44,389 bases of DNA from Nitrospiraceae bacterium. GTDB lineage: Bacteria > Nitrospirota > Thermodesulfovibrionia > UBA6902. The position numbers and the translations under genes are program-made. The notes beneath the pieces are model-generated. The model did no database searches. It was not told the DNA's origin and saw only the letters and a list, made by a program, of their open reading frames with translations. Position 1 is the first letter of the stretch. Each line of letters begins with the position of its first letter. Shown piece by piece: positions 11,845-37,989 of the stretch. Where the stretch lies: NCBI GenBank assembly GCA_003599425.1, contig QZKC01000019.1, forward strand, positions 1 to 44,389, given 5' to 3'.

Positions 11845-11983
11845 GAAAATCTTTACCACACATAGTTTCAGTTTGCGCCTGATTTCCGGACTGTTGTCCA
11901 CGACAATTTCAGGCATTGCCAAATGAGAAAAATTGTGATAAAAATAAGTCATAAACTTTTGTCCTGATATATTTGGAGGTATT

Positions 11984-13393
11984 ATGAAAATTATTTTCTC
12001 ATTTCTGGCAATTGTGCTGCTTTTCATATCAATTACGTTTGCGTCTGCTAAAGAAGCTGAAGAAATAAAAGAGCCCGCTGAAGCGCAGGAAAAACATGAA
12101 ATATTCAATTTTAATAAAGTAAAGGTTGAGCAGTTTATATCGCCTGAGCTCTGCAGGGACTGCCACTCTGAGATATTTAAACAGTGGGAAGGTTCCATGC
12201 ACAGCAAGGCGTTCGTTGATCCTGTATGGCGTGCGGCTACAAAGCTTTTTAACAAGGATGTAAAAACTGAGGATCAGATCCTTGAGATGAAGGCGTGTGT
12301 GAAATGCCATACGCCGCTGGGCTTCCGCTCCCATTCCATAACTTCGCCTGATGAAGATTATGACAAGCTTGCTGAACTTCCTGCCCAGGGGATTTTCTGC
12401 AACTGGTGCCATAACATAAGCGAAGTAAAAGGTCTCGGGGATGCCCACTATGAGGTGGCGCCCGGAGGCGGTGAAGATGACCCGTCAACAATGCTGGGGC
12501 CTTTTAAAGATTCAGACTCGCCTTATCATCCAACAAAATATTCAGAGCTGCATACGAAATCAGATTTCTGCGGCCTCTGCCATAATGTATCCCATGCCGG
12601 GAATCACATCCCGATCGAGCGTACCTATGATGAGTGGAGGAACAGCCCGTACTATACAGGAAAGCCTGAAACAACGGTCAACTGCCAGGATTGTCATATG
12701 CGACAGCGTCCGGGAGTGCCAGCGACAGGGAAGACCAAGCGGCCTGACAACCCCGGGAAGGCATGTGACATGGGACCGGACAGGCCCCATATCTGGACGC
12801 ATTATTTTGTCGGAGGCAATGCAATTGTCACAAAACTCCTTGGAAGCGAGACTCACGCACAGATGGCTGTAGAGCGGCTTCAGCATGCTGCAGACCTGCA
12901 GATACTGAAGAACATCTCTTACGGGAAAGAAGAACTCTCCCATGTGCGTGTTAAAGTTATTAATTCTGGCGCCGGCCATTATCTTCCTACAGGGCTTACC
13001 GAGGTGAGACAGATGTGGCTTGACGTGAAGATAACCGACGCAAAAGGGAAAGTACTGTTGCGTTCCGGCGAGGTTGACATGAAGGGGAACATCGATAAAA
13101 ATGCAGTTGTTTATCATACAAAGCTCGGCAATGAAAAAGGAGAACCTGAGCTGAACGTCGCGCTCGCTGACAGGATACTCTATGATCACAGAATTCCGCC
13201 GAAAGGGTACATGATTGAAAGTTATGCATTCTATATTCCTGAAGATGCCGTATCTCCATTGAATATTGAAGTGAGCCTGAAATACCGGAGCGCTTCACAG
13301 GAGTTGGCCAGGGTGCTGCTTGGTGAAAATGCCCCGGAGATCCCCGTGATTAACATGGCAAGCGTTACTGAAAAAATCGAGGTTCAGAAGTGA
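11984..13393 (+). CDS. Five-haem cytochrome c, cytochrome c554-like
   Basis: A 469-residue exported protein with a clean signal peptide (IIFSFLAIVLLFISITFASA) and five CxxCH haem-binding motifs: CRDCH (57-61), CVKCH (105-109), CNWCH (139-143), CGLCH (196-200) and CQDCH (234-238). All are in the first half; the second half (about 290-460) is beta-rich with no further haem site. The opening pattern CRDCHSEIFKQWEGSMHSKAF is typical of the cytochrome c554/c-prime group of periplasmic electron carriers and oxidoreductases. SD GGAGG precedes ATG 11984. It overlaps a lipoprotein gene by 4 nt, and the convergent sulfur cluster lies just downstream. The electron donor and substrate are unknown; a link to sulfur or nitrogen redox chemistry is conjecture. 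Confidence 0.9.
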   Translation: MKIIFSFLAIVLLFISITFASAKEAEEIKEPAEAQEKHEIFNFNKVKVEQFISPELCRDCHSEIFKQWEGSMHSKAFVDPVWRAATKLFNKDVKTEDQILEMKACVKCHTPLGFRSHSITSPDEDYDKLAELPAQGIFCNWCHNISEVKGLGDAHYEVAPGGGEDDPSTMLGPFKDSDSPYHPTKYSELHTKSDFCGLCHNVSHAGNHIPIERTYDEWRNSPYYTGKPETTVNCQDCHMRQRPGVPATGKTKRPDNPGKACDMGPDRPHIWTHYFVGGNAIVTKLLGSETHAQMAVERLQHAADLQILKNISYGKEELSHVRVKVINSGAGHYLPTGLTEVRQMWLDVKITDAKGKVLLRSGEVDMKGNIDKNAVVYHTKLGNEKGEPELNVALADRILYDHRIPPKGYMIESYAFYIPEDAVSPLNIEVSLKYRSASQELARVLLGENAPEIPVINMASVTEKIEVQK

Positions 13394-14000: not shown

Positions 14001-14042
14001 GATAACCTCCTGATCGGGAAATAAGTGAATGCCACATATAAA

Positions 14043-14121
14043 TGTTTATGTTGCGTCATCCCCGCGAAGGCGGGAATCCAGTCTATTCTCTCTGGATTCC
14101 GGGTCAAGCCCGGAATGACAA
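14043..14121. repeat. Palindromic repeat of the cattcCCGCGAAGGCGGGAATcc type
   Basis: Two hairpin units face each other: CCCGCGAAGGCGGG...ATCCAG and CTGGATTCCGGGTCAAGCCCGG. The same unit occurs at 19138-19232 and 31382-31453. It is a common non-coding dispersed repeat. Confidence 0.85.
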
Positions 14122-14153
14122 TAAATGGAATATATAGGACGGCAGCAATAGTT

Positions 14154-14426
14154 TTAATAGGGATCAATGATATCGTATTCCAGCAGTTTCTCAGCCAGGT
14201 CTTCGGTCGAAATGAACTTGAAGCCTTTGTTCTTCTTTGTCGTTGTGTAGATGTCTACTTCTGCAATATTTGCTATCTCCAGATTCTGCTGTGTGTAGGG
14301 GTCGCTGTAGATCTTTCTGTCAAGAACGTACACGTCGACTTTGTCATCCATCATGATGAGGCCGGCAGCCATCCTGAAGGCCTCGCACTGCCTTTCCCGT
14401 GCAAGTACTGCTATTTTTTTTGGCAT
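14154..14426 (-). CDS. DsrE-like protein, paralogue of the gene at 43894
   Basis: A 90-residue soluble protein beginning MPKKIAVLARERQCEAFRMA. It is clearly related over its whole length to the protein at 43894-44166: both have 90 residues, both share the R(M)A.GL..MDD.VDV.VLD.K pattern near residues 18-38 and both end in a Y D hydrophobic-hydrophobic . P Y tail. The fold pattern (strand, EAxRMAxGL helix, VDVYVLDRK strand) matches the DsrE/DsrF superfamily that handles persulfide sulfur. One cysteine (residue 14) is present here but absent from the paralogue. A TTAGGAGGAGAAA ribosome site precedes the ATG. Its exact role is unknown; sulfur relay is inferred from neighbours. Confidence 0.8.
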   Translation of the reverse strand: MPKKIAVLARERQCEAFRMAAGLIMMDDKVDVYVLDRKIYSDPYTQQNLEIANIAEVDIYTTTKKNKGFKFISTEDLAEKLLEYDIIDPY

Positions 14427-14493
14427 TTTCTCCTCCTAATCTTGATTATGTATTGCCTTTGCTCGAACCAGGCTTACTCCAAAAGAATCTGAG

Positions 14494-24492: not shown

Positions 24493-24508
24493 TTAATTCA
24501 CATAATGT

Positions 24509-24688
24509 TCAGGCGCCCTCATGGGCTTAAAGGGGAATCCAGTTAAATGCTGGAGCGGACCCGCCGCTGTAATCCCGATTTCCTTTTTCGGAATTCACAG
24601 TCTCTACTCCTGAACGCCACTTGTTACTATTACAGGGAAGGCGCGTAGAGACCGGGAGAGCCAGAAGACCTGCCTGAGCAACGCCTCA
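24509..24688 (+). ncRNA. Cobalamin (B12) riboswitch 1
   Basis: Conserved blocks in order: AAAGGGGAATCCAG, GCGGACCCGCCGCTGTAATC, CGCCACTTGTTACTATTACA, GGGAAGGCGCGTAGAGACC and the B12 box GAGCCAGAAGACCTGCCT at 24658-24675. AGGCG and CGCCT at the two ends close the basal stem. It is followed by a terminator, so it acts on transcription of btuFCD. Confidence 0.93.
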
Positions 24689-24738
24689 CAACAAGCCTTC
24701 GAGGAGAGGGGCTGTGAGGGTAAAGGTCTAACTTTTAT

Positions 24739-24776
24739 CCCCCGGCTTTCAGAATGAAGGCCGGGGTTTTTATTTT
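24739..24776 (+). terminator. Intrinsic terminator of riboswitch 1
   Basis: Stem CCCCGGC / GCCGGGG (24740-24746 with 24760-24766) followed by TTTTTATTTT. Its position between the riboswitch and btuF makes it the likely off-state when B12 is bound. Confidence 0.85.
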
Positions 24777-24852
24777 GGATTTCTATGGGAAAAAAGAGCA
24801 GGACAGCAAAGGAGCAGGATATATCAATAGTATGCATGGAGGACGTTATCCG

Positions 24853-25692
24853 ATGAAGCGATCCATTATACAGGTTCTTGTATGTTTCATTTTCATCCTG
24901 CTGATCGCAGATACTGCCAGCGCTAAATCTCCGGAGCGCATCATCTCGCTTGCTCCGAGCATAACCGAGATACTCTTTGCTGCGGGGCTTGGGGATAAAA
25001 TTGTGGGAGTCACAACATTTTGCGACCATCCTGAAGAAGCCAAGCAAAAGCCAAAGATCGGCGGCATGTCAAATCCCTCTCTCGAAGAGGTCGTATTGCT
25101 GAAGCCAGATATCGTTATCATGACGACAGATGGAAACCCAAAGGAGTTCGAGCAGAAGCTGCATTCATTGGGAATAAGGACCTATGTATTTGAGTCGCTC
25201 ACCATCCCGGAACTCCCTCAGGGACTGAAAAAAATGGGTGAGGCGCTTGAGGAGGATGAACGATTCAACTCCCTTGCCACAAAAATTGATGAGACACTGA
25301 ATGCGGTCAGGTCTCAGGGATCGGCATCGGGCAAAAAAATACTTTTCATTGTCTGGCCGGAGCCTCTGATCGTTGCAGGGAGACAGACCGCTGTTGATGA
25401 TGCCATAGGGCTGCTGGGAGGGATCAATATCGGCGCGATCGGACAGGGACGTTATCCGAAATATTCCATAGAAGAAATATTTCACCGGTCGCCGGATATC
25501 ATTTTCATAGGTAAGGGCATGGTGGAAGAGGGAGATAAAAACATGAGGGAGCTTTCGAAGGGTCTCCTTGAGAGGATAGCACATGTCTCCGCGGTGAAAA
25601 AAGGGAAAGTATTCTTTGTAGGTGATGGGCTCTACCGGCTCGGGCCGAGGGTTGTTGATGGAATACAGGAACTTGCAGGATATCTGAAATGA
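24853..25692 (+). CDS. btuF: B12-type ABC transporter periplasmic binding protein
   Basis: A 279-residue exported protein with signal peptide (SIIQVLVCFIFILLIADTASA) and the class III binding-protein domain: RIISLAPSITEILFAAGLGD, VGVTTFCDHPEEAKQKPKIG, LLKPDIVIMTTDG, then ILFIVWPEPLIVAGRQT and VFFVGDGLYRLGPRVVDGI. It captures corrinoid in the periplasm for BtuCD. ATG 24853 has a GGAGGA site; the frame extends to 24754 but that overlaps the terminator. The gene overlaps btuC by 4 nt. The riboswitch fixes the ligand as a corrinoid rather than a siderophore. Confidence 0.9.
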   Translation: MKRSIIQVLVCFIFILLIADTASAKSPERIISLAPSITEILFAAGLGDKIVGVTTFCDHPEEAKQKPKIGGMSNPSLEEVVLLKPDIVIMTTDGNPKEFEQKLHSLGIRTYVFESLTIPELPQGLKKMGEALEEDERFNSLATKIDETLNAVRSQGSASGKKILFIVWPEPLIVAGRQTAVDDAIGLLGGINIGAIGQGRYPKYSIEEIFHRSPDIIFIGKGMVEEGDKNMRELSKGLLERIAHVSAVKKGKVFFVGDGLYRLGPRVVDGIQELAGYLK

Positions 25693-26651
25693 ACTGGAAA
25701 ATCTTTCTCATAACTGTCACGGCGATTATCATTATTACGGTTGCCTTGTTTGCAGGACCGAGGCTGATAAATCCTTTTGTCATGAACGATACAGAAAAGG
25801 AGATCCTTTTGTCCATCAGACTGCCGAGGGTCATAGTCTCTATCCTCATGGGTGCGGCGCTCGGGGCCTCAGGTGCTGTGCTTCAGGGGATACTCAGAAA
25901 TCCCCTTGCAGACCCATATATCCTTGGCATATCAAGCGGCGCTTCGCTGACGGCGGCGATGGGGATAATTTCGGGAATAACGCTCTTCGGGATCGTTACG
26001 ATTCCGGTGTTCGCGTTTGCCGGCGCATTGTGCACAGGCGTTTTTGTCGGCGCAATGGGCTGGAAACGCGGAGGGTTCTGGCCCGACAGGCTTCTGCTTG
26101 CAGGGGTGGGGCTCGGTTTTCTCTTCTCATCGATACTTATGCTGATCATGAGCATTTCAAGCACTGAGGGGTTACGGCGCGCGATGCTCTGGATATTCGG
26201 CGACCTCTCCCTTGCTGACTGGTCGGTCATACCGTATGGATCCCTGTTCATAGCAGCAGGACTTAGCATTTCCATGCTCCGCGCAAAGTCGCTCAACGCG
26301 CTGATCCTCGGTGATGAGCTTTCGCACAGCCTTGGTTTTTCCCCGCGTAAAGAGAGGTTCATCCTTTTTTTATGTGTCAGCCTCATGACCGCGGCCTCTG
26401 TTTCACTGGGCGGGATGATCGGCTTTATTGGTCTTCTTATCCCTCACATGGCAAGATTCGTGACCGGTTCTGACAACCGGATACTAATCCCCGTGTCCGC
26501 CATCGGCGGCGGAGCTATTTTATGCATTGCTGACCTTATCGGGAAGTCTGTGCTGTCTCCGACCGAATTGCCGGCCGGAATTATCACGGCGATAATCGGC
26601 GCCCCGTACTTTCTCTATCTTCTCAGGAGGAAAGATGTCCTCAGCAACTGA
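25689..26651 (+). CDS. btuC: B12-type ABC transporter permease
   Basis: A 320-residue FecCD-family permease with about nine to ten membrane helices. Family landmarks: [72 protein letters not shown]-type [10 protein letters not shown] and [21 protein letters not shown]. The GFIGLLIPH segment is the coupling region to the ATPase. It overlaps btuF by 4 nt and btuD by 17 nt. Confidence 0.92.
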
Positions 26652-27399
26652 AAACACCATACTCGAATTCAGGGATGTCTGCTTTTCATACGACAATAGC
26701 AGGGTTCTCATTGATCAAATAAACCTATCAGTATCGAACGGAGAATTTATCGGGCTGCTCGGGGCAAACGGTTCAGGGAAATCTACCATTCTCAAGCTTG
26801 CAAGCGGAATTTTGAAACAGGCACGCGGCATCATATATCTCTGGGGAAAGCCGGTGCATTCATACAGGAACAGGGACAGGGCGAAGCTTCTCAGCTATCT
26901 TCCCCAGGTCCTTGATATCAGTATCCCTTTCACTGTGAGAGAGGTCGTCAGCATGGGATTATATCCATACGACATTATGCCGCCATTGAGCACTGATGAA
27001 GCGCTTGAGATGGTAGGTCTTTCGGTAAAGGCAGATTCCGTCATTACAAACCTGAGCGGCGGTGAAAGGAGGAGGGTCTACATTGCCATGACACTTCTGC
27101 AGGGCGCGGGCCTTGTGCTCCTTGACGAGCCCCTTGCTAACCTGGACATCAGATATCAGATGGAACTTCTCAGGCTGTTAAAAGAGCTGCGGGCCAAAAG
27201 GGGAATAACAACGATCATGGCCCTCCATGACATCAATATCGCGCTGCAGTTTGACAGGCTGATGGTCATTAAAGAGGGGAAGATCATCGGGACAGGAACT
27301 TCGGATGAGATCGTACAACAGGACTTGCTGAAAAAGGCATTTGACATTGATATAGAAATAAAGAGAGAAGAAACAGGAGGAGTATACATTAAATATTAA
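26635..27399 (+). CDS. btuD: B12-type ABC transporter ATPase
   Basis: A 254-residue ABC ATPase: Walker A GANGSGKST, Q-loop in LSYLPQV, signature LSGGERRRV, Walker B GLVLLDEPLANLD and the H-loop in MALHDIN. It powers BtuC. ATG 26635 follows AGGAGGAAAG, itself inside the end of btuC. The stop lies only a few bases before the second cobalamin riboswitch. Confidence 0.92.
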   Translation: MSSATENTILEFRDVCFSYDNSRVLIDQINLSVSNGEFIGLLGANGSGKSTILKLASGILKQARGIIYLWGKPVHSYRNRDRAKLLSYLPQVLDISIPFTVREVVSMGLYPYDIMPPLSTDEALEMVGLSVKADSVITNLSGGERRRVYIAMTLLQGAGLVLLDEPLANLDIRYQMELLRLLKELRAKRGITTIMALHDINIALQFDRLMVIKEGKIIGTGTSDEIVQQDLLKKAFDIDIEIKREETGGVYIKY

Positions 27400-27401
27400 C
27401 C

Positions 27402-27566
27402 ATCAGGTATCGCAGGGGAAGCCTGTGAGAATCAGGAACTGCCCCGCAACTGTAATGGGAACGAAAATCCAGAGGCATTCAGCCTTTAAAGCCACTGTAC
27501 CGGCACACCGGAACGGGAAGGCGGGTGAGTAGACAGCCCTCAGTCAGGAGACCCTGAATACCTGAG
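27402..27566 (+). ncRNA. Cobalamin (B12) riboswitch 2
   Basis: Classic blocks: GGTATCGCAGGGGAA, CAGGAACTGCCCCGCAACTGTAATGGG, AAAGCCACTG, CGGGAAGGCGGGTGAGTAGA and B12 box CAGTCAGGAGACCCTGAAT; CAGGTAT (27404-27410) and ATACCTG (27558-27564) close the basal stem. It begins 3 nt after the btuD stop. No U-tract terminator follows; a GAGGAGG ribosome site with a possible CCTC partner at 27616 suggests translational control. Confidence 0.95.
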
Positions 27567-27591
27567 TAAGACTATAGCCCTTCGAGGGAAG

Positions 27592-27835: not shown

Positions 27836-27899
27836 CTAAAACAAACCTGTGAACAATTCAATAGAGAAACTGAAACCATTCCTACGGAGGAAAACCGAC

Positions 27900-29894
27900 A
27901 TGTATATAATTTTATTGACACTTTTGTTCATATTCACATCAATACCGATAACCTTTGCGGAAGATCAACCCGTGAAACTTGGGCAGATCGTGGTCACAGC
28001 AACACGATATGGCGAGGAGTTGTCGTCTGTTCCATCGAACATAACAGTTATCTCAGGGGATGACATAACTCGCTCAACGGCCCAGAATATTCCAGATATT
28101 CTGAGGTCTGAGGCCGGGGTCCTTGTCAATGATATAGGAGGTAACCGTCGTAATATGACAGTGGACATCAGGGGATTTGGTGAGACTGCCGGTTCAAATA
28201 CATTGGTGCTTGTCGATGGCAGACGGGTAAACCAGCCTGACCTGAGTGGAACAGACTGGTCGCAGATCCCCCTGGATCGTGTAGCCCGGATCGAGATAAT
28301 ACGCAGCGGCAGGGGGAGTATTCTTTACGGTGACAATGCTGCAGGCGGAGTAATAAATATCATCACAAAGGAAGAGAATAAACTGAAGGCCGGAGGCGCT
28401 CTTGCTGCGGGAAGCTATGATACCTACAAGGGGAATGCCTATTTCTCAAACAGCACAAAGGCCCTTTCCTATTCTTTGAACGGCAGTTATCTTCAGTCTG
28501 ATGGATACAGGGACAACAGTGACACGAATGCAAAAGACCTTGGACTGAATCTCAGTTATTATCCGAATAATACTCTGAGGATTAATTTCAGCAGCGGGTA
28601 TCATAAGGATAATACGGGACTTCCGGGCGGGCTCAAGGACAGTGATTTTACAGCAGGAAAGTCAAGGACAGACACGGTCAACCCGAGGGACTTCGCAGAG
28701 GTCGAGGATTATTATTTCAAGGGAGGACCGGAAGTCTATTTCCTCAATGACAGCCTTGCCAAGATAGACTTTTCATACAGAAGGCGAGCTTCTCTTTCAT
28801 TCTCATCGTTCACCGGAGGGAATTTTACCGGAGATACTGAGATCAGGACAATAGCTGTCTCACCTCAGGCGCTTTTGAAGAACGCTTTCGGGAACGTGAA
28901 AAACACCCTGACCTTTGGAGCAGACATCCAGGATGCGAAAGAGGAGATCGAGAACAACTCATCCTTTTCAGGCATTCAGGCAGTGACACTCGAAAAAGAA
29001 AGCGTCGGCTATTACGTCCATGATGAAGTGCGGATGACTGATGCCTTTGCCATTTCAGGCGGCTACAGGCATGACCGGGCAGATTTTGATTTTCGTAGCA
29101 ATTTGCCTGCTCTCCCCGGTTCACCTGACCACACAGACATGGACGAGGATGTTCTCACAGCCGGACTTAATTATGCGTATTACGGAAAGTCGTATGCATA
29201 TCTGAGCTATTCCCAAAGTTTCAGATACCCTGTGCTTGATGAGCTTTTCAATTTTATCACCAATACGATCGATACTACATTGATGCCGCAGCGGTCTGAG
29301 AATTACGAGATCGGGCTGAGACACTATTTCACCGAAACATTTTACGGCCATGTGAATTTCTTCAGAATAGATACAGACAGAGAGATAGTGTACGATCCGG
29401 GAATAGGGTTCTTCGGTGCCAATAATAATCTCAAGGGTGGTACCCGGAGAGACGGAGTCGAGTTGTCGATCAGTGTGCAGCCGCTGAACTGGCTGCAGGT
29501 GAGCGGGGATTATACCTACACTGATGCGCGGCTAAAGGGCGGAAAGTATGATGGAAGCGCTTTCCCTAATGTCCCCCATAACAGGGCTTCGGTAACAGCA
29601 TCTGCTGATCTTGGAAAAGGCATCAGTGTAGTGCTGAACGGTGTTTTTGTGGGTGAACGGCCGTTTATCAGCGACTTTGACAATGAATTCCGCAATCAGG
29701 AGGATTACACTGTTATCAATGGCAAGATCAAATACAGATGGAAATATCTCACAGCGTATCTTGACGTCAACAATATTTTCGATGAAGAATATTCTGAATT
29801 CGGGACGCTCAGCCTTTTCAGCTTTCCTGTAGAAAAGGCATTTTACCCGTCACCGGGAAGGAATTTCCTCGCAGGGTTGGCGATTGATTTCTGA
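27900..29894 (+). CDS. btuB: TonB-dependent outer-membrane cobalamin receptor
   Basis: A 664-residue receptor: signal peptide (MYIILLTLLFIFTSIPITFA), a TonB box-like VKLGQIVVTATRY directly after it, a plug domain (about 40-150: SVPSNITVISGDDI, LRSEAGVLVNDIGG, RRVNQPDLSGTDWSQIPLDR, RGSILYGDNAAGGVINIITK) and a 22-strand-type barrel ending YPSPGRNFLAGLAIDF with a C-terminal aromatic. Position after a B12 riboswitch and before tonB and cob genes identifies the ligand as a corrinoid. ATG 27900 is chosen for its ACGGAGG site and signal peptide, not the frame start at 27849. It is 330 nt from the riboswitch because of a repeat element. Confidence 0.9.
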   Translation: MYIILLTLLFIFTSIPITFAEDQPVKLGQIVVTATRYGEELSSVPSNITVISGDDITRSTAQNIPDILRSEAGVLVNDIGGNRRNMTVDIRGFGETAGSNTLVLVDGRRVNQPDLSGTDWSQIPLDRVARIEIIRSGRGSILYGDNAAGGVINIITKEENKLKAGGALAAGSYDTYKGNAYFSNSTKALSYSLNGSYLQSDGYRDNSDTNAKDLGLNLSYYPNNTLRINFSSGYHKDNTGLPGGLKDSDFTAGKSRTDTVNPRDFAEVEDYYFKGGPEVYFLNDSLAKIDFSYRRRASLSFSSFTGGNFTGDTEIRTIAVSPQALLKNAFGNVKNTLTFGADIQDAKEEIENNSSFSGIQAVTLEKESVGYYVHDEVRMTDAFAISGGYRHDRADFDFRSNLPALPGSPDHTDMDEDVLTAGLNYAYYGKSYAYLSYSQSFRYPVLDELFNFITNTIDTTLMPQRSENYEIGLRHYFTETFYGHVNFFRIDTDREIVYDPGIGFFGANNNLKGGTRRDGVELSISVQPLNWLQVSGDYTYTDARLKGGKYDGSAFPNVPHNRASVTASADLGKGISVVLNGVFVGERPFISDFDNEFRNQEDYTVINGKIKYRWKYLTAYLDVNNIFDEEYSEFGTLSLFSFPVEKAFYPSPGRNFLAGLAIDF

Positions 29895-29899
29895 ATGGT

Positions 29900-30649
29900 A
29901 TGAGGGACGCAGGCGGCATAGATGACATACGGTCAACGGTGTTTTTATCGTGCATACTGCATGCGTGTTTTTTTGCTGCTGTGGTTGTCAGCTCTTCATA
30001 TATCATGAAGAGCAGAATGATCATGCCTGGCGATAACATCCTGTTTGTTCACCTGAGCGAGGATAAGATCAGTCAGCAGAAAAAAGATGCGATGATCACG
30101 GACAAACATGTGACTGGGAATGCTGTTCCTGCAAAAAAAGAGATTCATACGGCAGGGAAAGCGCAGGAGGACGAAGTTCATCCTGATGCTTCGGCAAAGG
30201 TGACAAAGGGGAACACCGAAAGGGCTGATTCTCTAATTGCCAGCGGCCCGCAGGCCACAGGTCCGACTCAGGATATTGCTGAAACGGGATTGTCACTGGT
30301 TACAGACCCCGAAGGAACCGAAAGGGCCATTGGCGTATCACAGGAAAAAGTTCCCCCTGCAGGAACCGCAGGCGGGGTTCTGTCACCAGATATCCTGATG
30401 CTCATCGGAGGAGCCATAGAAAAAGCAAAGACGTATCCGCCTATTGCAAGAAAACGGGGAATGGAAGGCACCGTGTTTGTGAGTTTCAAAATAGGGAGTG
30501 ACGGGATTCCCCACGACCTTATTGTATTAAAAAGCTCAGGGTTTGAGGTCCTTGACACAGCGACACTTGACGCAATTAAAAGGGCGGCTCCCTATCCGAA
30601 TATTCAGAGCCGCGTCGAGGTGCCGGTAGCGTACAGGTTAAAGGAATGA
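29900..30649 (+). CDS. tonB: TonB-family energy-coupling protein
   Basis: A 249-residue protein with one N-terminal membrane helix (TVFLSCILHACFFAAVVVSSS), a long charged and Ala/Pro/Lys-rich periplasmic linker (about 50-160) and a C-terminal TonB domain (about 165-249: YPPIARKRGMEGTVFVSFKI, LKSSGFEVLDTATLDAIKRA, VEVPVAYRLKE). It transmits inner-membrane proton-motive energy to the TonB box of outer-membrane receptors. It starts 5 nt after btuB, so it probably serves that receptor. exbB and exbD are not in the window. Confidence 0.88.
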   Translation: MRDAGGIDDIRSTVFLSCILHACFFAAVVVSSSYIMKSRMIMPGDNILFVHLSEDKISQQKKDAMITDKHVTGNAVPAKKEIHTAGKAQEDEVHPDASAKVTKGNTERADSLIASGPQATGPTQDIAETGLSLVTDPEGTERAIGVSQEKVPPAGTAGGVLSPDILMLIGGAIEKAKTYPPIARKRGMEGTVFVSFKIGSDGIPHDLIVLKSSGFEVLDTATLDAIKRAAPYPNIQSRVEVPVAYRLKE

Positions 30650-30745: not shown

Positions 30746-30803
30746 TATTCAGGAATCCATCGCCAGCTTTGCCTTTGTACCTTGCATTGGAATGGAGTTC
30801 ATC

Positions 30804-31376
30804 ATGAGTGTTCAGATCTTTTTCATCACAGGCGGGGCACGGAGCGGGAAGAGCTCATTTGCCATGAGCGAGGCCGGAAAAGTCAAAGGGCGGAAAGCGT
30901 ACATTGCAACTGCACAGGCGCTTGATGAGGAAATGCACGACCGTATTCTGAGGCACAGGCAGCAAAGGAGTGCGGAGTGGGATACATACGAGGAACCGCT
31001 TCAGGTGACAGATGTTCTTGAAAAGATAATGACTGCACACGATGTGGTACTCCTGGACTGCCTGACACTCTGGTTATCGAATTTAATGATAAGAGAACCG
31101 GATTCAGGGCGCATAAGACCAACAGTAGATGAGTATTTGTCAGAATTTGTAGCCATGCTGCAGCAGTTAAAAGGCTTGTCACACGATACCCGTCATGCGT
31201 CACGGCTTTTCATCGTTTCAAATGAGGTCGGAATGGGGATCGTACCGGAGAATGAACTGGCAAGGAAGTTTCGTGATCATGCCGGGATACTGAATCAGAA
31301 GATCGCAGCTATAGCGGATGAGGTTTATCTGGTAACAGCCGGGATACCGGTGAAAATAAAAGAGCGAAAGCAATAA
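30804..31376 (+). CDS. cobU: Adenosylcobinamide kinase / adenosylcobinamide-phosphate guanylyltransferase
   Basis: A 190-residue CobU/CobP: P-loop [43 protein letters not shown] (with the histidine that takes GMP), [15 protein letters not shown], then [20 protein letters not shown] and [19 protein letters not shown]. It phosphorylates adenosylcobinamide and transfers GMP to give AdoCbi-GDP for CobS. ATG 30804 is preferred; its GGAG ribosome site lies in the end of a repeat element. ATG 30792 is the alternative start. Confidence 0.95.
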
Positions 31377-31470: not shown

Positions 31471-32538
31471 ATGCAATTAAACGCAATACTATCAAATATT
31501 AATAACGTCAACGGCAAGTTCATCGAACAGGCTCAGAGGCGTCTTGATAACCTGACGAAACCGCAGGGAAGCCTTGGAAGACTTGAGGAATTTGCACGTC
31601 AGCTTGTATCGATCACCGAAAAGCCGATGCCTGCACTCGATAAAAAGGTTGTCTTCACTTTCGCGGGAGACCACGGAGTAGCGGATGAGGGTGTCTCAGC
31701 GTATCCAAAGGTCGTGACGCAGCAGATGGTCCTGAATTTTTTAAGCGGAGGCGCAGGGATCAATGTCCTTGCACGGCATGCCGGTGCAGATGTTGTGGTG
31801 GTGGATATCGGAGTTGATGGTGATTTCGGCAATGCAGGGGAAAGCCGCAACACACCTCTGCAAATAAGGAAGATCGTCAGAGGCACGAAGAACATGAGGC
31901 AGGAACCTGCAATGACACGGGATGAAGCTCTGAGATGTATAGATGTCGGTATTGAGCTGGCACACGAATACGCAAAGAAAGGGTATGCAATGTTCGGGAC
32001 CGGCGATATGGGGATTGCGAATACAACACCTTCAAGCGCGATTGCTTCGGTGCTGACCGGGAAGCCGGTTGAGGAAGTTACGGGCAGGGGAACGGGTATT
32101 AACGATGAAACATGGAAACATAAAGTGCAGGTCATAAAGGACGCGATCTCATTCAACAGGCCTGATCCTTCTGACGCCCTGGATGTCCTTTCAAAGGTCG
32201 GCGGAGCAGAGATAGGCGGCATTGCGGGGCTTATGATCGGAGCAGCTGCAAACAGGGTCCCGGTTATCGTTGATGGTTTTATTTCAACTGCGGGCGCTCT
32301 CATTGCGTATTCAATAGAGCCGAAGACAAAAGACTATATGTTTGCAGCACATATGTCACAGGAGGTCGGACATCGGGCAATGCTTGAGAAGATAGGATTG
32401 AGGCCGGTCCTGGATCTTGACCTCAGGCTCGGAGAAGGCACAGGCGCAGCGCTTGCAATGCTCATCATAGAAGCCGGCCTGAAGATATACAAAGAGATGG
32501 CGACGTTCGGAGAGGCGGGGGTCTCAGAGAAGGCTTAA
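31471..32538 (+). CDS. cobT: Nicotinate-nucleotide:dimethylbenzimidazole phosphoribosyltransferase
   Basis: A 355-residue CobT of normal length with [85 protein letters not shown] and the catalytic-glutamate region [16 protein letters not shown]. It makes alpha-ribazole phosphate, the lower-ligand nucleotide of cobalamin, from a benzimidazole base and nicotinate mononucleotide. An AGAGGAG site precedes the ATG. It sits between cobU and cobS, which use its product. Confidence 0.96.
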
Positions 32539-32805: not shown

Positions 32806-32826
32806 AATCCTGATTCAGAGTTATGA
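32800..32826 (+). other. Eight-codon leader frame coupled to cobS
   Basis: ATG at 32800 behind a GGAG site from the repeat end; frame MNNPDSEL, whose TGA overlaps the cobS ATG (ATGA). cobS lacks a good ribosome site of its own, so this may feed ribosomes to it. Confidence 0.4.
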
Positions 32827-33620
32827 AAAGAATATTGCTTGCATTCCAGTTTTTAACGATCATTCCGTTCGGGAATGCCGGAAAGGTTTCCGAGCGGGAA
32901 ATGGGCGGGGCAACCGCTTTTTTCCCCCTGGTGGGTTTTGTTGAGGGGATGATCTATATACTGCTCGCATCGCTTTTTCTGAAGGCGTTCCCCAGCGATC
33001 TTACCAACGGGCTCCTCATATTTGCCATGATATTTCTCAATGGAGGTCTCCACATGGACGGGCTATCTGACACGTTTGACGCCCTCGCCTCAAGAGGAGA
33101 CAGGGAGAAAAAGCTCGCCATCATGAAGGAAGGCACGGTGGGGCCTACCGGAGTCGTGGCGATAGTGCTCGTCATCTTACTGAAATATCTGCTGCTGAAC
33201 GCGGTCTTTTTCCATTCATCGCTCAGGAGCTTTTTTGTGACGCTCATTCTTGTGCCGGTGCTGTCCCGATGGGCCATGGTCCCGGCGATTTACCATTGCC
33301 GTTCAGTGCGGCAGGACGGACTGGGAAAGGTTTTCATTGAACATACCGGGGTGAAGGAAATGATCTCATCAACTGTCCTCGCGCTCATTCTGTGTGTGGC
33401 AGGAGTGTTCGCGCTTTGCAGCGGGAACAGATGCCAGTTGATGTCCGAATTGCATCTCTTCATCATCCTGCCTCTGTTATATGTGTTCGGTCTTTCATCA
33501 GTATGGTTTTTCAAAAAACATTTCGACGGTATGACCGGAGATTCGTTCGGCACGGTCCATGAAACAGCAACGCTGCTGGTATTAATAATAAGGGTTATAT
33601 GGTCACAACAGTATTTCTGA
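32823..33620 (+). CDS. cobS: Adenosylcobinamide-GDP ribazoletransferase (cobalamin synthase)
   Basis: A 265-residue integral membrane protein with about six to seven helices. Conserved CobS sections: RILLAFQFLTIIPFG, GGATAFFPLVGFVEG, LNGGLHMDGLSDTFDALASR, REKKLAIMKEGTVGPTGVVA and GMTGDSFGTVHE. The aspartates of HMDGLSDTFD bind metal in the family. It joins AdoCbi-GDP and alpha-ribazole (phosphate) at the inner membrane. It overlaps cobC by 22 nt. Confidence 0.95.
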   Translation: MKRILLAFQFLTIIPFGNAGKVSEREMGGATAFFPLVGFVEGMIYILLASLFLKAFPSDLTNGLLIFAMIFLNGGLHMDGLSDTFDALASRGDREKKLAIMKEGTVGPTGVVAIVLVILLKYLLLNAVFFHSSLRSFFVTLILVPVLSRWAMVPAIYHCRSVRQDGLGKVFIEHTGVKEMISSTVLALILCVAGVFALCSGNRCQLMSELHLFIILPLLYVFGLSSVWFFKKHFDGMTGDSFGTVHETATLLVLIIRVIWSQQYF

Positions 33621-34255
33621 TACGGCATGGAGAGACAGAAGGCGCGGAGACGAAGCGCTATAAAGGGCATATTGATGTGCCTCTGTCAGATAATGGCATT
33701 GAACAGATGAAACGACTTGCAGCATTTATTGCAAAACGGGTCAAAGGTCAAGGGTCAGGGGTCAGGGAGAAGGAACATCTTACCCCTTGCCTCTTGCACC
33801 TTGCCGCTATTTATTGCTCCGACCTTTCGCGTGCGGTAAAGAGCGCTGATATCATTGCCGGGCCATTCGGGGTTAAACCGGTCATTGTGCCTGAATTGAA
33901 AGAAAGGAACTTCGGTATGTGGGAAGGCATGACTTTCGATGAAATAAAAGAGAAGTGGCCTGATGCATTCAAATCCTGGGCAGCGAATCCACTGAAGTTC
34001 AGCCCGATGGAGGGTGAAAGCACACTTGAAGCAAGGGACAGGGCAGTACCTGTTTTCCATAAAATACTTAATGGGCATAAAGGGGGATCCATAGCAATTG
34101 TTTCACATGGAGGGATAATAAGGATCATCCTCTGTGAGCTGCTTGGTATCCCACTTGAAAATATTTTCAGGATCGAGCAGGGTTATGGTTGTTTGAACAT
34201 TATCGAGATACATGATACATATCCGGTAGCAAAACTGATCAATTTTACGGTTTAA
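33599..34255 (+). CDS. cobC: Alpha-ribazole phosphatase-like histidine phosphatase
   Basis: A 218-residue histidine phosphatase with the catalytic LIRHGETEG (His at about residue 9), YKGHIDVPLSDNG, IYCSDLSRAVKSADI, ERNFGMWEGMTFDEI and the second catalytic histidine in IAIVSHGGIIRIIL. It removes the 5' phosphate from alpha-ribazole phosphate or adenosylcobalamin phosphate. Between the LAAFIAKR helix and IYCSDLSRA there are about 20 extra residues (VKGQGSGVREKEHLTPCLLH) encoded by a dispersed DNA repeat. The start lies within cobS. Confidence 0.9.
   Translation: MVTTVFLIRHGETEGAETKRYKGHIDVPLSDNGIEQMKRLAAFIAKRVKGQGSGVREKEHLTPCLLHLAAIYCSDLSRAVKSADIIAGPFGVKPVIVPELKERNFGMWEGMTFDEIKEKWPDAFKSWAANPLKFSPMEGESTLEARDRAVPVFHKILNGHKGGSIAIVSHGGIIRIILCELLGIPLENIFRIEQGYGCLNIIEIHDTYPVAKLINFTV
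33739..33804. repeat. Dispersed GGTCAAGGGTCAGGGGTCAG repeat inside cobC
   Basis: GGTCAAAGGTCAAGGGTCAG... faces CCCTTGCCTCTTGCACCTTG. It is purine/pyrimidine biased, unlike the flanking codons, and keeps the reading frame. Confidence 0.75.
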
Positions 34256-34361
34256 AGATGAAAATTGCTCATTAATGCACATGCATTTTCCCTCATCATT
34301 GGTGAGGCACGACGGGAGATACTGAAGGCTCTCGAATCTTCAAGGCAAAGGGGGTGAAAAA
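34256..34361 (+). other. Possibly structured leader of the CbpA-like peptide gene
   Basis: About 105 nt with short nested helices, for example CTCA...TGAG at 34294-34308 and TGAAG...CTTCA at 34323-34342. No known riboswitch consensus was recognised. Confidence 0.25.
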
Positions 34362-34496
34362 TTGAACAAGGCCAAGAAGGCTGAGAAGAAGAAAAAGGCT
34401 GCAATTTCATTTCATATGAAATGCGCGAAGACGGCTAATGGATTGACGCATTTCGTAATGTACGGAGATGTCCCGAAGAAAAAGATGCCTTTGTAA
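34362..34496 (+). CDS. 44-residue CbpA-like modified-peptide precursor
   Basis: A short gene starting at TTG 34362 with an AAGGGGGTG ribosome site 7 nt before it. The product is a lysine-rich leader (MNKAKKAEKKKKAA), a core ISFHMKCAKTANGLTHFVMY with one cysteine (residue 21), and a GDVPKKKMPL tail. It is the only gene between cobC and a radical SAM/SPASM enzyme in a cobalamin operon. From memory, this arrangement is that of the CbpA (precursor) and CbpB (radical SAM) pair named for cobalamin neighbourhoods. Coding is supported by start signal, size, position and composition. The chemical modification and role are unknown. Confidence 0.72.
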   Translation: MNKAKKAEKKKKAAISFHMKCAKTANGLTHFVMYGDVPKKKMPL

Positions 34497-34504
34497 GTGA
34501 AAAT

Positions 34505-34668
34505 CAGTAAGCCACAGAGGCGCAGAGGCACAGAGAAAATATAAACTCTCTCAGTGTCTCAGTGCCTCAGTGGTAAATTTGCAGATATGTCTGTCATTCT
34601 GAGCGAAGCGAAGAATCTTTTATATGAGGCCCGTCACTTCGTTCAAGGTGACAGCCCATGCTGCGACG
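34505..34668. repeat. Two dispersed repeats between the peptide and its radical SAM gene
   Basis: CCACAGAGGCGCAGAGGCAC...CAGTGTCTCAGTGCCTCAGTGG at 34511-34573, then CTGTCATTCTGAGCGAAGC...CACTTCGTTCAAGGTGACAG at 34590-34663, each with facing arms. No gene is seen in the 208 nt. Confidence 0.75.
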
Positions 34669-34704
34669 CCCCATAATTAACCATACAAAAAGGAGAGATG
34701 AAAA

Positions 34705-36036
34705 ATGACCAACAATAACCGCGGACTTTCATTTTCCAATGTTGACGCTGACTGGAAGCTGGCGCTGGACCCTGAAAATATCTTCTGGAGCGTTTTACCG
34801 AGGAGCAATGGCGATTTTATGCTGCCTGATGCTCTTATTGACCTGTATAAAAAAGAGATGAAACACCTTGACACGGAGATGCATAATTTCAGATTCAGGG
34901 AACCCTTGAACTGTGTGTATATAGATCCCACTGACAGGTGCAATGCCAACTGCCCTTATTGCTACATCCCTGCAAAGATACGTCAGCAGGGGACGCAGAT
35001 GACCGCTGAACAGCTCGATACCACGCTTAGCAAGATCGAGGAGCACTTCAGAGGGACAAAGAAAAAACCCGTGATCGTATTTCATGCTGCAGAGCCCCTG
35101 CTTGTAAAGGACATCCTCTTTGGCGCGATCAAAAAGTATCACAAAAAGATGCTCTTTGGCATTCAGACCAATGCCCTGCTGCTTGAAAAGAAAGACACTG
35201 ATTTCATAAAAAAATACCGCGTCAGCATCGGTATATCGCTCGACGCGCCTACAGCATCTGTCAATAATCGTTCGCGTGTATCAAGGGAAGGTGAGGGGAA
35301 TTTCAATAAGGCAGTGCAGGCACTGGACTGGTTTAACGGTTATGAAGGGCTGAATGTCATCTGCACCGTAAATAAATTTAATGTCAATAAACTCTCTGAC
35401 CTTGTTTCCTTCCTTCATAAAAAGAAAGCGCCAATGGTTCTTCTCAATCCCGTACGCCTGACGCAGAAACGGTCGGAACAGGTCAAGCCTGATGATAAAG
35501 TATATGCCAAAAATCTGATAAAGGCCGTTGACACGGCAATGGCCCTCACAAAAAAGACCGGGCGCCAGATCGTGGTCGGCAACTTTGCCAATGTACTGCT
35601 TGCGATCATCTCCCCTACTGCGCGGCGCATGATGTGCGACATCTCTCCCTGCGGCGGCGGAAGGACATTCCTTACGATCACCGCAGATGGTTCCATGGTG
35701 CCGTGTGGAGAATTTATCGGCATGAAGGAGTTCTCCGGAGGGAATATTTTCAGGTCGTCGATCGCAAAGGCTATGGAGTCAAAGCCGTTCAGGGCGATAA
35801 GGTCCAGGATGGTTGAGAACATCAATGAATGCGACACCTGTGATTTCAGGCATATCTGCGGATCACCCTGCCCCGCTGAGATGCATGCCCGAGGCAATAT
35901 TAATAAAAAGGCGGTGTTCTGTGAATTCTACAAAGAGATGATCAGACATGCTTTTAAGATGATAGCTGAGGACAACGTCAAGTATCTGCTGCGCGATGAT
36001 GCGCTTGACCAGATGGTGTATGAGTACAGGTATTAA
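34705..36036 (+). CDS. CbpB-like peptide-modifying radical SAM/SPASM enzyme
   Basis: A 443-residue radical SAM protein. The cluster motif is CNANCPYCY (about residues 77-85), binding the 4Fe-4S cluster that cleaves S-adenosylmethionine. A C-terminal SPASM region follows with MMCDISPCGGGR, GSMVPCGEFIGM, CDTCDFRHICGSPCPAEMHA and VFCEFYKEM, giving the cysteines for auxiliary Fe-S clusters used by peptide-maturing enzymes. A 70-residue N-terminal part may hold the precursor-binding element. It follows the 44-residue peptide gene by about 210 nt and has an AAGGAGAGATG site. From memory it matches the CbpB family found with cobalamin genes. The reaction is unknown. Confidence 0.85.
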   Translation: MTNNNRGLSFSNVDADWKLALDPENIFWSVLPRSNGDFMLPDALIDLYKKEMKHLDTEMHNFRFREPLNCVYIDPTDRCNANCPYCYIPAKIRQQGTQMTAEQLDTTLSKIEEHFRGTKKKPVIVFHAAEPLLVKDILFGAIKKYHKKMLFGIQTNALLLEKKDTDFIKKYRVSIGISLDAPTASVNNRSRVSREGEGNFNKAVQALDWFNGYEGLNVICTVNKFNVNKLSDLVSFLHKKKAPMVLLNPVRLTQKRSEQVKPDDKVYAKNLIKAVDTAMALTKKTGRQIVVGNFANVLLAIISPTARRMMCDISPCGGGRTFLTITADGSMVPCGEFIGMKEFSGGNIFRSSIAKAMESKPFRAIRSRMVENINECDTCDFRHICGSPCPAEMHARGNINKKAVFCEFYKEMIRHAFKMIAEDNVKYLLRDDALDQMVYEYRY

Positions 36037-36062: not shown

Positions 36063-37184
36063 ATGAAAGAGAAAAGTTCTGATAAAATCAAAGAGATGAT
36101 CTTACTTATAGGGCATGGCAGCCGCGCGCAGGAAAAGGACGGCATTGAGCAGACGGCAAAGCACCTGCACGGGCTTATACATCCGGGATGCAAAAAAGGA
36201 TGTGTGCAAGTTGCATATTTACAGTTCATGAAGCCGTCGATATCCGAGGCTATAGAAGATATGGCAGGGAAAGGTGCGACGGGGATCATTGTTCATCCCT
36301 ATTTTTTAACAGGCGGGACTCATGTCAGAAAAGGCATTCCCGAGGAGATAAAAAAGTCTCGCAAGCGATATCCAGAGGTAGATTTTATTTATACCGAACC
36401 TCTCGGCAGCCACAAAAAATTGGCAGAAGTAGTGCTTGCAAGGATGATGGAAACAGCTCCTGCCAAGCTGCTTCAGATACCTGAACGGGGAACAGGCACG
36501 AGGGAAAATAAAATACACATCATAGGCATTGGCTACAGGCCTCTTGACAACAGGGCGAAGGAGGCGGTTTTATGCTCAGACATAATCCTGGCAACAGACA
36601 GGCTCCGAGATGTTTTCAGACGATATGAAGAGTTTAATATGGTCAGGGACAAGATAAAAATACTAAAAGATATTCATGAGACTGAGAGATATATTCAAGA
36701 TAATTATAGAGACCGTATTATTGCACTTCTTGCTGATGGAGACCCATTGTTCTTCGGTATCGGAGGCAGGATCATGGAGAAGACCGGAAAAGATCCTGTT
36801 TTGGTCTATCCCGACCTTTCGAGTGTTCAGGTGGCGTTTTCGCGCATCAATGAAACATGGAAGGACGCATTTCTGATAAGCCTTCATGGCGGCCCTGATC
36901 CTGCAAAGAGGAGAAAACTTGAATATGAGCTAAACGACATCCCTTCATTATTAGCAAAGCATGACAAGATCGCCATTCTTACAGATAAAGTAAATACTCC
37001 TGAGGTCATAGCAAAGCTCCTTCATGAATCTTCTGCACTTCCGCACTTCCGCACTTCCGCACTTCAGATGTTTGTCTGTGAAAAACTCGGTTATCCTGAA
37101 GAAAAGATTACCAGTGGAACAGCCGAACAGATATCTGAGCTTGCCTTTTCGTACCCGAATGTCGTTATAATCCTGAAAAGATAG
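36063..37184 (+). CDS. CbiX-CbiE fusion: cobaltochelatase plus precorrin C5 methyltransferase domain
   Basis: A 373-residue two-domain protein. Residues about 10-135 are a short CbiX (sirohydrochlorin cobaltochelatase): MILLIGHGSRAQEKDGIEQT with the metal-binding histidine, VQVAYLQFMKPSISEAI and VHPYFLTGGTHVRKGIPEEI with the second histidine. Residues about 150-373 are CbiE, the cobalt-precorrin-7 C5-methyltransferase: IHIIGIGYRPLDNRAKEAV, IIALLADGDPLFFGIGG, PDLSSVQVAFSRINETW, and VCEKLGYPEEKITSGTAEQI. CbiE usually partners CbiT, which is not nearby. Residues about 325-335 are encoded by an 8-bp tandem repeat. Two steps of anaerobic corrin synthesis that are not adjacent are joined in one chain. 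Confidence 0.88.
   Translation: MKEKSSDKIKEMILLIGHGSRAQEKDGIEQTAKHLHGLIHPGCKKGCVQVAYLQFMKPSISEAIEDMAGKGATGIIVHPYFLTGGTHVRKGIPEEIKKSRKRYPEVDFIYTEPLGSHKKLAEVVLARMMETAPAKLLQIPERGTGTRENKIHIIGIGYRPLDNRAKEAVLCSDIILATDRLRDVFRRYEEFNMVRDKIKILKDIHETERYIQDNYRDRIIALLADGDPLFFGIGGRIMEKTGKDPVLVYPDLSSVQVAFSRINETWKDAFLISLHGGPDPAKRRKLEYELNDIPSLLAKHDKIAILTDKVNTPEVIAKLLHESSALPHFRTSALQMFVCEKLGYPEEKITSGTAEQISELAFSYPNVVIILKR
37036..37065 (+). repeat. 8-bp tandem repeat inside the cbiXE gene
   Basis: CACTTCCG three times plus CACTTC. Because 8 is not a multiple of 3, gain or loss of one unit would shift frame about 40 codons before the end. Confidence 0.85.
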
Positions 37185-37197
37185 GACCGCAGGAACA

Positions 37198-37989
37198 ATG
37201 ACGGAAAATGATCTGAAAATATTGAAGGCATGGTTTGCTCATTACACGAGATCGTTCTTTACATCCGATCAGGAAGATCAGAAGAACATCAACCTTAAAA
37301 TAGAGCACACTTACCATGTCTGTGAGAATATTGTGAGGATCGCTAATGGTATTTTGCCTGGCGATAATGAAAGAAGGCTTGCCGAAGCAGTGGCGCTCTT
37401 TCATGATGTAGGGAGGTTCCCGCAGTATGCTCGGTATAAAACATTCAAGGATGCCGTTTCCGTAAATCATGGATCGCTTGGGGCAAAGACATTAATATCT
37501 GAAAGGGTGCTTGAGAATCTCCCCGGCGATGAGCAGCGTCTTATAACAGAAGCCGTAAGATTTCACAGCGCCTTATCGATACCCAAGGCCGTTGATGAAA
37601 GAACGGTGTTCCTCCTTAAAATGATCCGCGATGCTGATAAATTGGATATCTGGCGTGTTTTTGCGGATTTTTATGAGGCGCCGGAAGAAGAACGGGCCTC
37701 AGCAACAGCTCACGGCAAACCCGACACCCCGGGATATTCAAAGGAGATGCTGTCGAATCTTTTTCAGAAGAGGATCGCGCCTTATTCCAGAGTCAGGAAC
37801 CTGAACGATTTCAAGATAATGAATTTATCATGGGCGTATGACCTGCATTTCAGGGAATCATTCAGATTGCTGCTTGAGCGTAATTATGTGGAAAGGATAG
37901 CCTGCAAGCTGCCTCAGACGGACGAGATCGTAGGGGCAGTGAAGGAATTAAAATCCTATATAACGGAAAAGCTCCGGGAAAACAGTTAG
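37198..37989 (+). CDS. HD-domain phosphohydrolase
   Basis: A 263-residue soluble protein with an HD domain: IEHTYHVCENIVRIANGI (first His), ALFHDVGRFPQYARY (HD pair), VRFHSALSIPKAV and MIRDADKLDIWRVF (final Asp), the H...HD...D metal set. Such enzymes remove phosphate from nucleotides or phosphoesters. The last 100 residues contain no further known motif. It starts 13 nt after cbiXE with AGGACCGCAGGAAC before the ATG, so it is likely the last gene of the cobalamin operon; the substrate is unknown. Confidence 0.85.
   Translation: MTENDLKILKAWFAHYTRSFFTSDQEDQKNINLKIEHTYHVCENIVRIANGILPGDNERRLAEAVALFHDVGRFPQYARYKTFKDAVSVNHGSLGAKTLISERVLENLPGDEQRLITEAVRFHSALSIPKAVDERTVFLLKMIRDADKLDIWRVFADFYEAPEEERASATAHGKPDTPGYSKEMLSNLFQKRIAPYSRVRNLNDFKIMNLSWAYDLHFRESFRLLLERNYVERIACKLPQTDEIVGAVKELKSYITEKLRENS

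Follow-up and report, generated by a model that had tools for sequence, protein, structure and literature searches.

Most work on peptides modified by radical S-adenosylmethionine (SAM) enzymes has dealt either with natural products that are secreted or with peptides from which small redox cofactors are made; pyrroloquinoline quinone (PQQ) and mycofactocin are cofactors cut from peptides. Another such pair is already named in NCBIfam: the short peptide CbpA (TIGR04164, cobo_pep) and the radical SAM/SPASM enzyme CbpB (TIGR04163, rSAM_cobopep). No experimental paper on this pair was found among the papers listed from the literature searched, whose coverage leaves subscription journals largely outside, and neither TIGR04163, TIGR04164 nor CbpA/CbpB phrases returned any paper there; matches to "cbpA" were taken as unrelated, as judged by titles and the beginnings of abstracts. 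Here we describe a cbpA-like gene and the cbpB gene downstream of it in a 44,389-nucleotide stretch from a Nitrospiraceae bacterium (assembly GCA_003599425.1, contig QZKC01000019.1), hereafter the window. cbpA and cbpB are a conserved pair. What is new here is a divergent CbpA subtype, the spread of the pair to Omnitrophota and archaea, its strict pairing at the genome level, and its occurrence in genomes in which corrin-ring genes were not detected.

The cbpA-cbpB pair and its conserved core

The elements of the pair in the window are:

34347..34356, forward strand: Shine-Dalgarno-like AAAGGGGGTG of cbpA, read from the sequence
34362..34496, forward strand: cbpA-like gene for a putative precursor peptide of 44 residues, TTG start
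34437..34469, forward strand: most conserved core codons of cbpA (NGLTHFVMYGD)
34497..34704, no strand: cbpA-cbpB gap, with inverted repeats at 34525-34568 and 34591-34654
34705..36036, forward strand: cbpB, gene for a predicted radical SAM/SPASM peptide maturase of 443 residues

By its sequence, the enzyme is assigned to NCBIfam CbpB (515.3 bits against a TIGR04163 cut-off of 375), and it contains Radical_SAM and SPASM domains. Its AlphaFold2 model has a mean predicted local distance difference test (pLDDT) score of 90.8 and a predicted template modelling score of 0.90. In an alignment of 87 CbpB sequences, from which two shorter ones had been excluded beforehand, the radical SAM cysteines C79, C83 and C86 (CxxxCxxC) and the SPASM set C311, C316, C334, C376, C379, C385, C389 and C406 were invariant. 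The nearest solved relatives include CteB, whose function according to its structure title is thioether formation, anSME, ChlB with the leader of its precursor, TigE, which we take to be a peptide-acting enzyme, and SuiB with its precursor; by structure titles, the best of these relatives are mostly peptide-acting enzymes. Pfam detected no PqqD-like recognition domain in the window enzyme, and the first 64 residues of the model form three strands followed by a 23-residue helix.

The peptide has a single cysteine, residue 21 (codon 34422-34424). It had no NCBIfam or Pfam match at E ≤ 1, and TIGR04164 (35-bit cut-off) found nothing at the cbpA locus in the window's own genome. Modeled alone with AlphaFold2, it gave a pLDDT of 62 and almost no secondary structure; such a low-confidence, unfolded model is as expected for a substrate peptide, and on the same values the idea of CbpA as a folded mini-protein was rejected. 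The initial annotation had described a short TTG-start gene with one core cysteine directly before a SPASM radical SAM enzyme. Both open reading frames (ORFs) agree with that description, but "directly" has to be relaxed, since cbpA is upstream of cbpB with 208 bp holding two repeat-like inverted repeats in between. Two sequences from this gap were tried and neither was repeated elsewhere in the window, and across 82 other loci the distance from the cbpA stop to the first aligned CbpB residue ranged from 3 to 466 nt. The gap with its inverted repeats is probably a lineage-specific insertion that lies outside the mechanism. A plasmid search with the cbpAB locus gave no matches.

Pairing was assessed in 109 CbpB loci (29 plus 80 related loci) representing 88 distinct CbpB DNAs, using a peptide hidden Markov model seeded from seven early sequences. 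The 80 related loci are the best 80 of 462 relatives, and this sample leans to the window's clade. A CbpA relative was located upstream on the same strand in 102 of the 109 loci and in 82 of the 88 distinct DNAs, in Nitrospirota, Omnitrophota and archaea. All six distinct misses have plain causes: a contig end at most 313 nt upstream in four (L045, L070, L087, and L096), a run of N 254 nt upstream in L082, and, in L049 (DNA identical to L022), a cbpA that sits on a separate contig of genome G317.

The same pairing was found across the phylum, in a survey of 395 genomes of which 37 carry CbpB above the TIGR04163 cut-off and 358 have no TIGR04163 match at E ≤ 1e-80. In 31 genomes, all of them CbpB-positive, and in none of the 358, the DNA matched a degenerate pattern encoding NGL(S/T)H(F/Y)(V/I)MYGD; the reversed control pattern matched none of the 395. 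Among the six CbpB-positive genomes outside the pattern, four contain a TIGR04164-type peptide, G311 (coordinates matching L099) carries the core with one substitution, and in G297 (L129) a run of N hides the cbpB start and the expected place of cbpA and so mimics a truncated gene. A joint decay of both genes in G297, read from a CbpB match covering residues 124-442 and the lack of cbpA in 9 kb, was withdrawn, as an assembly gap of about 100 N directly precedes the matched part.

Genome G261 holds two cbpAB pairs (L127 and L128) with identical B12 gene order, and may be two strains binned together.

The conserved part of CbpA is its C-terminal two thirds, with the core (Y/F)(R/H)xxCxxxxxGL(S/T)H(F/Y). 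In the 82 distinct loci, Gly, Leu and His are present in all 82, as are the Phe/Tyr and the Arg/His three residues before the cysteine, and Ser/Thr and Cys in 81 each. In the window's group the C-terminal 30 residues are conserved, and about 22 are nearly invariant when phyla and archaea are compared. In 45 Nitrospirota-type sequences, the ratio of nonsynonymous to synonymous differences (pN/pS) was 0.061 in 22 core codons versus 0.51 in five leader codons, the pattern of a true protein-coding gene whose leader varies while its core is kept. The core pS was 0.81, with synonymous differences close to saturation, and all Gly and Leu codons are in use at the invariant positions. Since the core combines this low pN/pS with the use of all Gly and Leu codons, it is conserved by selection on the protein and not on RNA.

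The short frame, which the initial annotation had suggested looking for upstream of CbpB homologues, is thus conserved there in both position and core. Its picture of the peptide is modified in two respects. Lysine richness was rejected as a defining feature: the leader lysines are not conserved (net charge from -4 to +6 over the 82 loci), and what is kept is the C-terminal part. In the core, the anticipated G-x-x-H-F is conserved, and F-H-x-K-C is the form that Y-(R/H)-x-x-C takes in one lineage.

A tree of 38 CbpB rows chosen from the 87 split off a clade, here clade A (branch 0.97), and placed the window among Nitrospirota. Archaeal rows occurred in three places, with L108, L109 and L111 (ANME-1 type), Hydrothermarchaeum L103, and SZUA-158 L117; branches are long, leaving some placements unsure. 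Clade-A CbpB is about 42% identical to the window enzyme, and four clade-A peptides of the phylum (L009-L012), at 46-55 bits, pass the TIGR04164 cut-off. With the same model, five CbpA relatives from Omnitrophota and archaea reach 14-26 bits, and L016, near the window, has no match. Judged by these scores, the window peptide is a divergent CbpA missed by the NCBIfam CbpA model, which recognizes a sister group. The comparison with the CbpA/CbpB arrangement in the initial annotation was right for the enzyme; for the peptide, which TIGR04164 leaves unmatched, it named the right type.

Corrinoid gene context and genomes without detected ring genes

The B12-related features of the window are:

24754..27399, forward strand: BtuF/BtuC/BtuD-like corrinoid ABC importer, behind its own cobalamin riboswitch (24494-24691)
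27381..27572, forward strand: cobalamin riboswitch upstream of the run from btuB through cbpAB to cbiXE (RF00174, 70.3 bits against a gathering threshold of 31.5)
27849..30649, forward strand: BtuB-like TonB-dependent receptor (27849-29894) and TonB (29900-30649)
30792..31376, forward strand: CobU
31471..32538, forward strand: CobT
32823..33620, forward strand: CobS
33599..34255, forward strand: CobC-like alpha-ribazole phosphatase (TIGR03162, 158.7 bits, just below the cut-off of 162.9)
36063..37184, forward strand: CbiX-CbiE fusion (sirohydrochlorin chelatase-like plus precorrin/cobalt-precorrin methyltransferase)
37198..37989, forward strand: HD-domain protein, recurring in related B12 operons (cluster 17, 14 loci)

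The pair is codirectional with the B12 genes and downstream of a cobalamin riboswitch, in the position between cobC and cbiXE given by the initial annotation. Riboswitches were also present upstream of CbpB in five of seven related loci scanned. For the 80 related loci, neighboring ORFs were called with a simple greedy caller and clusters named from one representative per single-linkage cluster; in this clustering CbiO merges with BtuD-type ATPases and the ring methyltransferases merge with one another. A B12 or cobalt gene lies within three ORFs of the pair in 71 of the 80, and in 67 it is immediately adjacent and codirectional. The commonest order in Nitrospirota is CbiM-c9-CbiQ-CbiO-cbpA-cbpB, often followed by CbiD, and a common one in Omnitrophota is CobU/T/S/D/Q-CbiB-cbpAB-CbiA-CbiX-CbiC. 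CobT is within three ORFs in 12 of the 80 loci; it adjoins cbpB in L108-L110, L112, and L114, and the order cbpAB-CobT is found in four of five ANME-1-type loci.

Outside the B12 set, no partner gene common to all groups was found among the neighbors. No peptidase or peptide exporter appeared in the 29 neighbor clusters with a scanned representative, smaller clusters being unscanned and general proteases possible. No shared peptidase stands next to the pair in the scanned neighbors either; the M3 peptidase of L118, the U32 peptidase of L101 and the Lon of L120 each occur just once. Non-B12 neighbors (one to four genes each at L086, L099, L101, L103, L115-L118, L120, and L121) were considered as a functional clue and set aside, none of them recurring; those scanned comprise flagellin, M3 peptidase, TetR, a metallo-lactamase fold, U32, ABC1, SRP54, NAD synthase, ParB, Lon, and others.

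Two further neighbors recur. A Dph6-like ATP-pyrophosphatase is encoded near CbpB in Omnitrophota B12 operons and in clade-A L119 (L090, L091, L095-L097, L100, L106, L114, and L119). A protein of about 112 residues (L043:3275-3613 and relatives) is encoded in 31 loci, mostly between CbiM and CbiQ; its representative had no Pfam match at E ≤ 0.01 and no NCBIfam match at E ≤ 1e-20, and it may belong to the cobalt importer as a small subunit. Elsewhere in the window, a short ORF at 14025-14489 has a start region reading VIPAKAGIQ...FRVKPGMT, presumably typical of translated intergenic repeats.

Corrin-ring genes were surveyed in 61 CbpB genomes, namely the 37 of the phylum survey and the genomes of 24 of the 80 related loci, a non-random set chosen for diversity. 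CobS was detected in 59, CobT in 58, a CbiM-type importer in 52, CbiH (at E ≤ 1e-40) in 43, CbiC in 41, and CbiD in 38. The absence of CbiC and CbiD alone was rejected as a marker of salvage and CbiH was required as a third, because G261 shows neither of the two yet has CbiH and other ring methyltransferases. G261 was accordingly dropped from the salvage set, and G030 and G418 (CbiC not found, CbiD present) are likewise uncounted. All three genes were undetected in 17 of the 61 genomes, the window's included. CobS is present in all 17 and CobT in 16, and four of them (G162, G329, G211, and G245) are at least 96% complete. The PF01891 importer was also undetected in five (G162, G329, G409, G415, and G416). 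Since 17 CbpB genomes show none of the three ring genes and all 17 have CobS, a dedicated role of the pair in cobalt insertion is unlikely; these genomes agree better with a part in corrinoid salvage, in the assembly of the nucleotide loop or in later handling. The link to cobalamin and corrinoids made in the initial annotation is upheld by gene context, by the riboswitches and by these genomes.

Proposed role and alternative explanations

We propose that CbpA would be made on the ribosome as a precursor peptide and then be modified by the radical SAM/SPASM enzyme CbpB. CbpB would abstract hydrogen within the C-x5/6-G-L-(S/T)-H-(F/Y) core and form a crosslink there, most likely a cysteine thioether and otherwise a link of His and aromatic side chains. 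The modified peptide would stay in the cell and, through its fixed Cys and His groups, bind corrinoids (cobinamide, cobalamin intermediates) or pass them along between uptake, nucleotide-loop assembly (CobU/T/S) and use. The parts of this proposal differ in strength. We have strong confidence in CbpA as the predicted substrate of CbpB, and a role of the pair in corrinoid metabolism is highly probable. That the pair acts after ring formation and cobalt insertion is probable, and on balance we lean towards a crosslink as the chemistry of CbpB. For the reading as a whole, in which CbpB-crosslinked CbpA would be an intracellular corrinoid-handling peptide, we consider the chances evenly poised; direct handling of corrinoids, rather than regulation or another role, is put forward tentatively. 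The most specific version, in which crosslinked CbpA would be a dedicated carrier of corrinoids within the cell, or an axial-ligand peptide, shared by anaerobic bacteria and archaea (a "corrinoid chaperone" among ribosomally synthesized and post-translationally modified peptides), is doubtful. A housekeeping role of modified CbpA is likely, because the pair is tied to B12, about 22 residues are near-invariant across phyla and both prokaryotic domains, and it occurs in genomes with and without ring genes.

Several observations weigh against this reading. No B12 gene lies within three ORFs in 9 of the 80 related loci (of these, L049 and L113 are short), and three of the four clade-A loci have none among their neighbors. 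CbiO or a related ATPase is near the pair in 32 of the 80 loci and CbiQ in 30, which would fit a cobalt role. The window genome is 89.6% complete, and of the 17 genomes in which the three ring genes were undetected, 12 have no completeness figure. The window (36063-37184) and G329 (L123:9763-10158 and 11832-12497) retain CbiX and CbiE-like genes beside cbpAB, which a pure salvager would not need. CobT is present in 316 of the 395 phylum genomes, and in 281 of the 358 without CbpB, so its presence says little; on this baseline a link to CobT and the lower ligand, drawn from its occurrence in 58 of the 61 CbpB genomes, was rejected. The phylum baseline covers CobT only. Finally, in the CbpA of L107 (4489-4623) a Gly replaces the core Cys and the MYGD stretch is missing, while the L107 CbpB keeps all conserved cysteines; the cysteine may not be essential, or a base may be wrong.

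Among the alternatives, a cobalt metallochaperone or chelator, in which CbpA would take cobalt from the CbiMQO importer and deliver it to CbiX/CbiK for insertion, was favored at first from the adjacency to CbiMQO genes. The commonest Nitrospirota order, often with CbiD next, the CbiX directly downstream in the window, the CbiX still beside the pair in G329, which lacks CbiC, CbiD and CbiH, and the near-invariant Cys and invariant His of the core all speak for it. It was demoted on the 17 of 61 CbpB genomes without the three ring genes, five of them also without PF01891 and four at least 96% complete; moreover, most Omnitrophota loci have CobU/T/S/D/Q and CbiB as neighbors, and CobT accompanies the pair in four of the five ANME-1-type loci. 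We now regard this explanation as quite improbable. A regulator or sensor, in which modified or corrinoid-loaded CbpA would control a B12 transporter, the CobS/CbiB membrane complex or gene expression, is unlikely: a small, predicted unfolded peptide in B12 operons, several of which follow riboswitches, would suit it, but no non-B12 partner gene recurs in all groups, the window operon already has a riboswitch, and some 22 near-invariant residues across phyla and archaea exceed our own expectation for a regulatory peptide.

CbpA could also be a carrier from which modified residues are cut out as a small cofactor or as a lower ligand of corrinoids, given its cofactor-like level of conservation and the 12 of 80 loci with CobT within three ORFs. 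This is very improbable, as the scanned neighbors hold no shared peptidase and conservation is not confined to one or two residues but, in the window's group, covers the C-terminal 30. That the short frame would be an untranslated or RNA-level element, or a leader ORF merely tuning cbpB translation, might be thought of from its length, its TTG start and its variable spacing to cbpB (3-466 nt); it is scarcely credible in view of the core pN/pS of 0.061 at a pS of 0.81, the use of all Gly and Leu codons at invariant positions, and the separate contigs of cbpA and cbpB in G317. If the corrinoid-handling role of CbpA is true, a radical-SAM-modified peptide would have a function in cofactor handling that even apparent salvagers of B12 precursors retain. 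From these data come a wider reach of the CbpA family, a core motif that mass spectrometry can look for, and grounds for putting corrinoids ahead of cobalt.

Comparison with known peptide-modifying systems

The NCBIfam CbpA/CbpB pair is the system most like the one in the window: the enzyme scores above the family cut-off, and a short single-Cys peptide with a C...GL(S/T/A)H(F/Y) core is encoded upstream. The peptides differ: clade A has forms like ISYRRAC...GTGLSHYIL, whereas the window peptide, unmatched by TIGR04164, reads ISFHMKC..TANGLTHFVMYGDVPKKKMPL and has a further conserved stretch at its C-terminus. The SCIFF maturase CteB (PDB 5WGG/5WHY), considered here with the ranthi- and sactipeptide maturases, is, among solved structures, the best match to CbpB in both sequence and fold, and these systems share radical SAM and SPASM domains and a Cys-bearing peptide partner; on the other hand, identity is 17-19%, CbpB has no PqqD-like domain by Pfam, and the CbpA core has one cysteine. 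anSME (PDB 4K36) is a close fold match to CbpB (template modelling score by target about 0.8) and shares with it the 7-Cys SPASM arrangement. The substrate motif of sulfatases is C/S-x-P-x-R; CbpA does not contain it, and no sulfatase is found among the annotated neighbors. PQQ and mycofactocin resemble the pair in combining a conserved short precursor with a radical SAM/SPASM enzyme in a cofactor setting. They differ in that cbpAB shows no shared protease, and in that the conserved part of CbpA covers about 30 residues in the window's group and not two.

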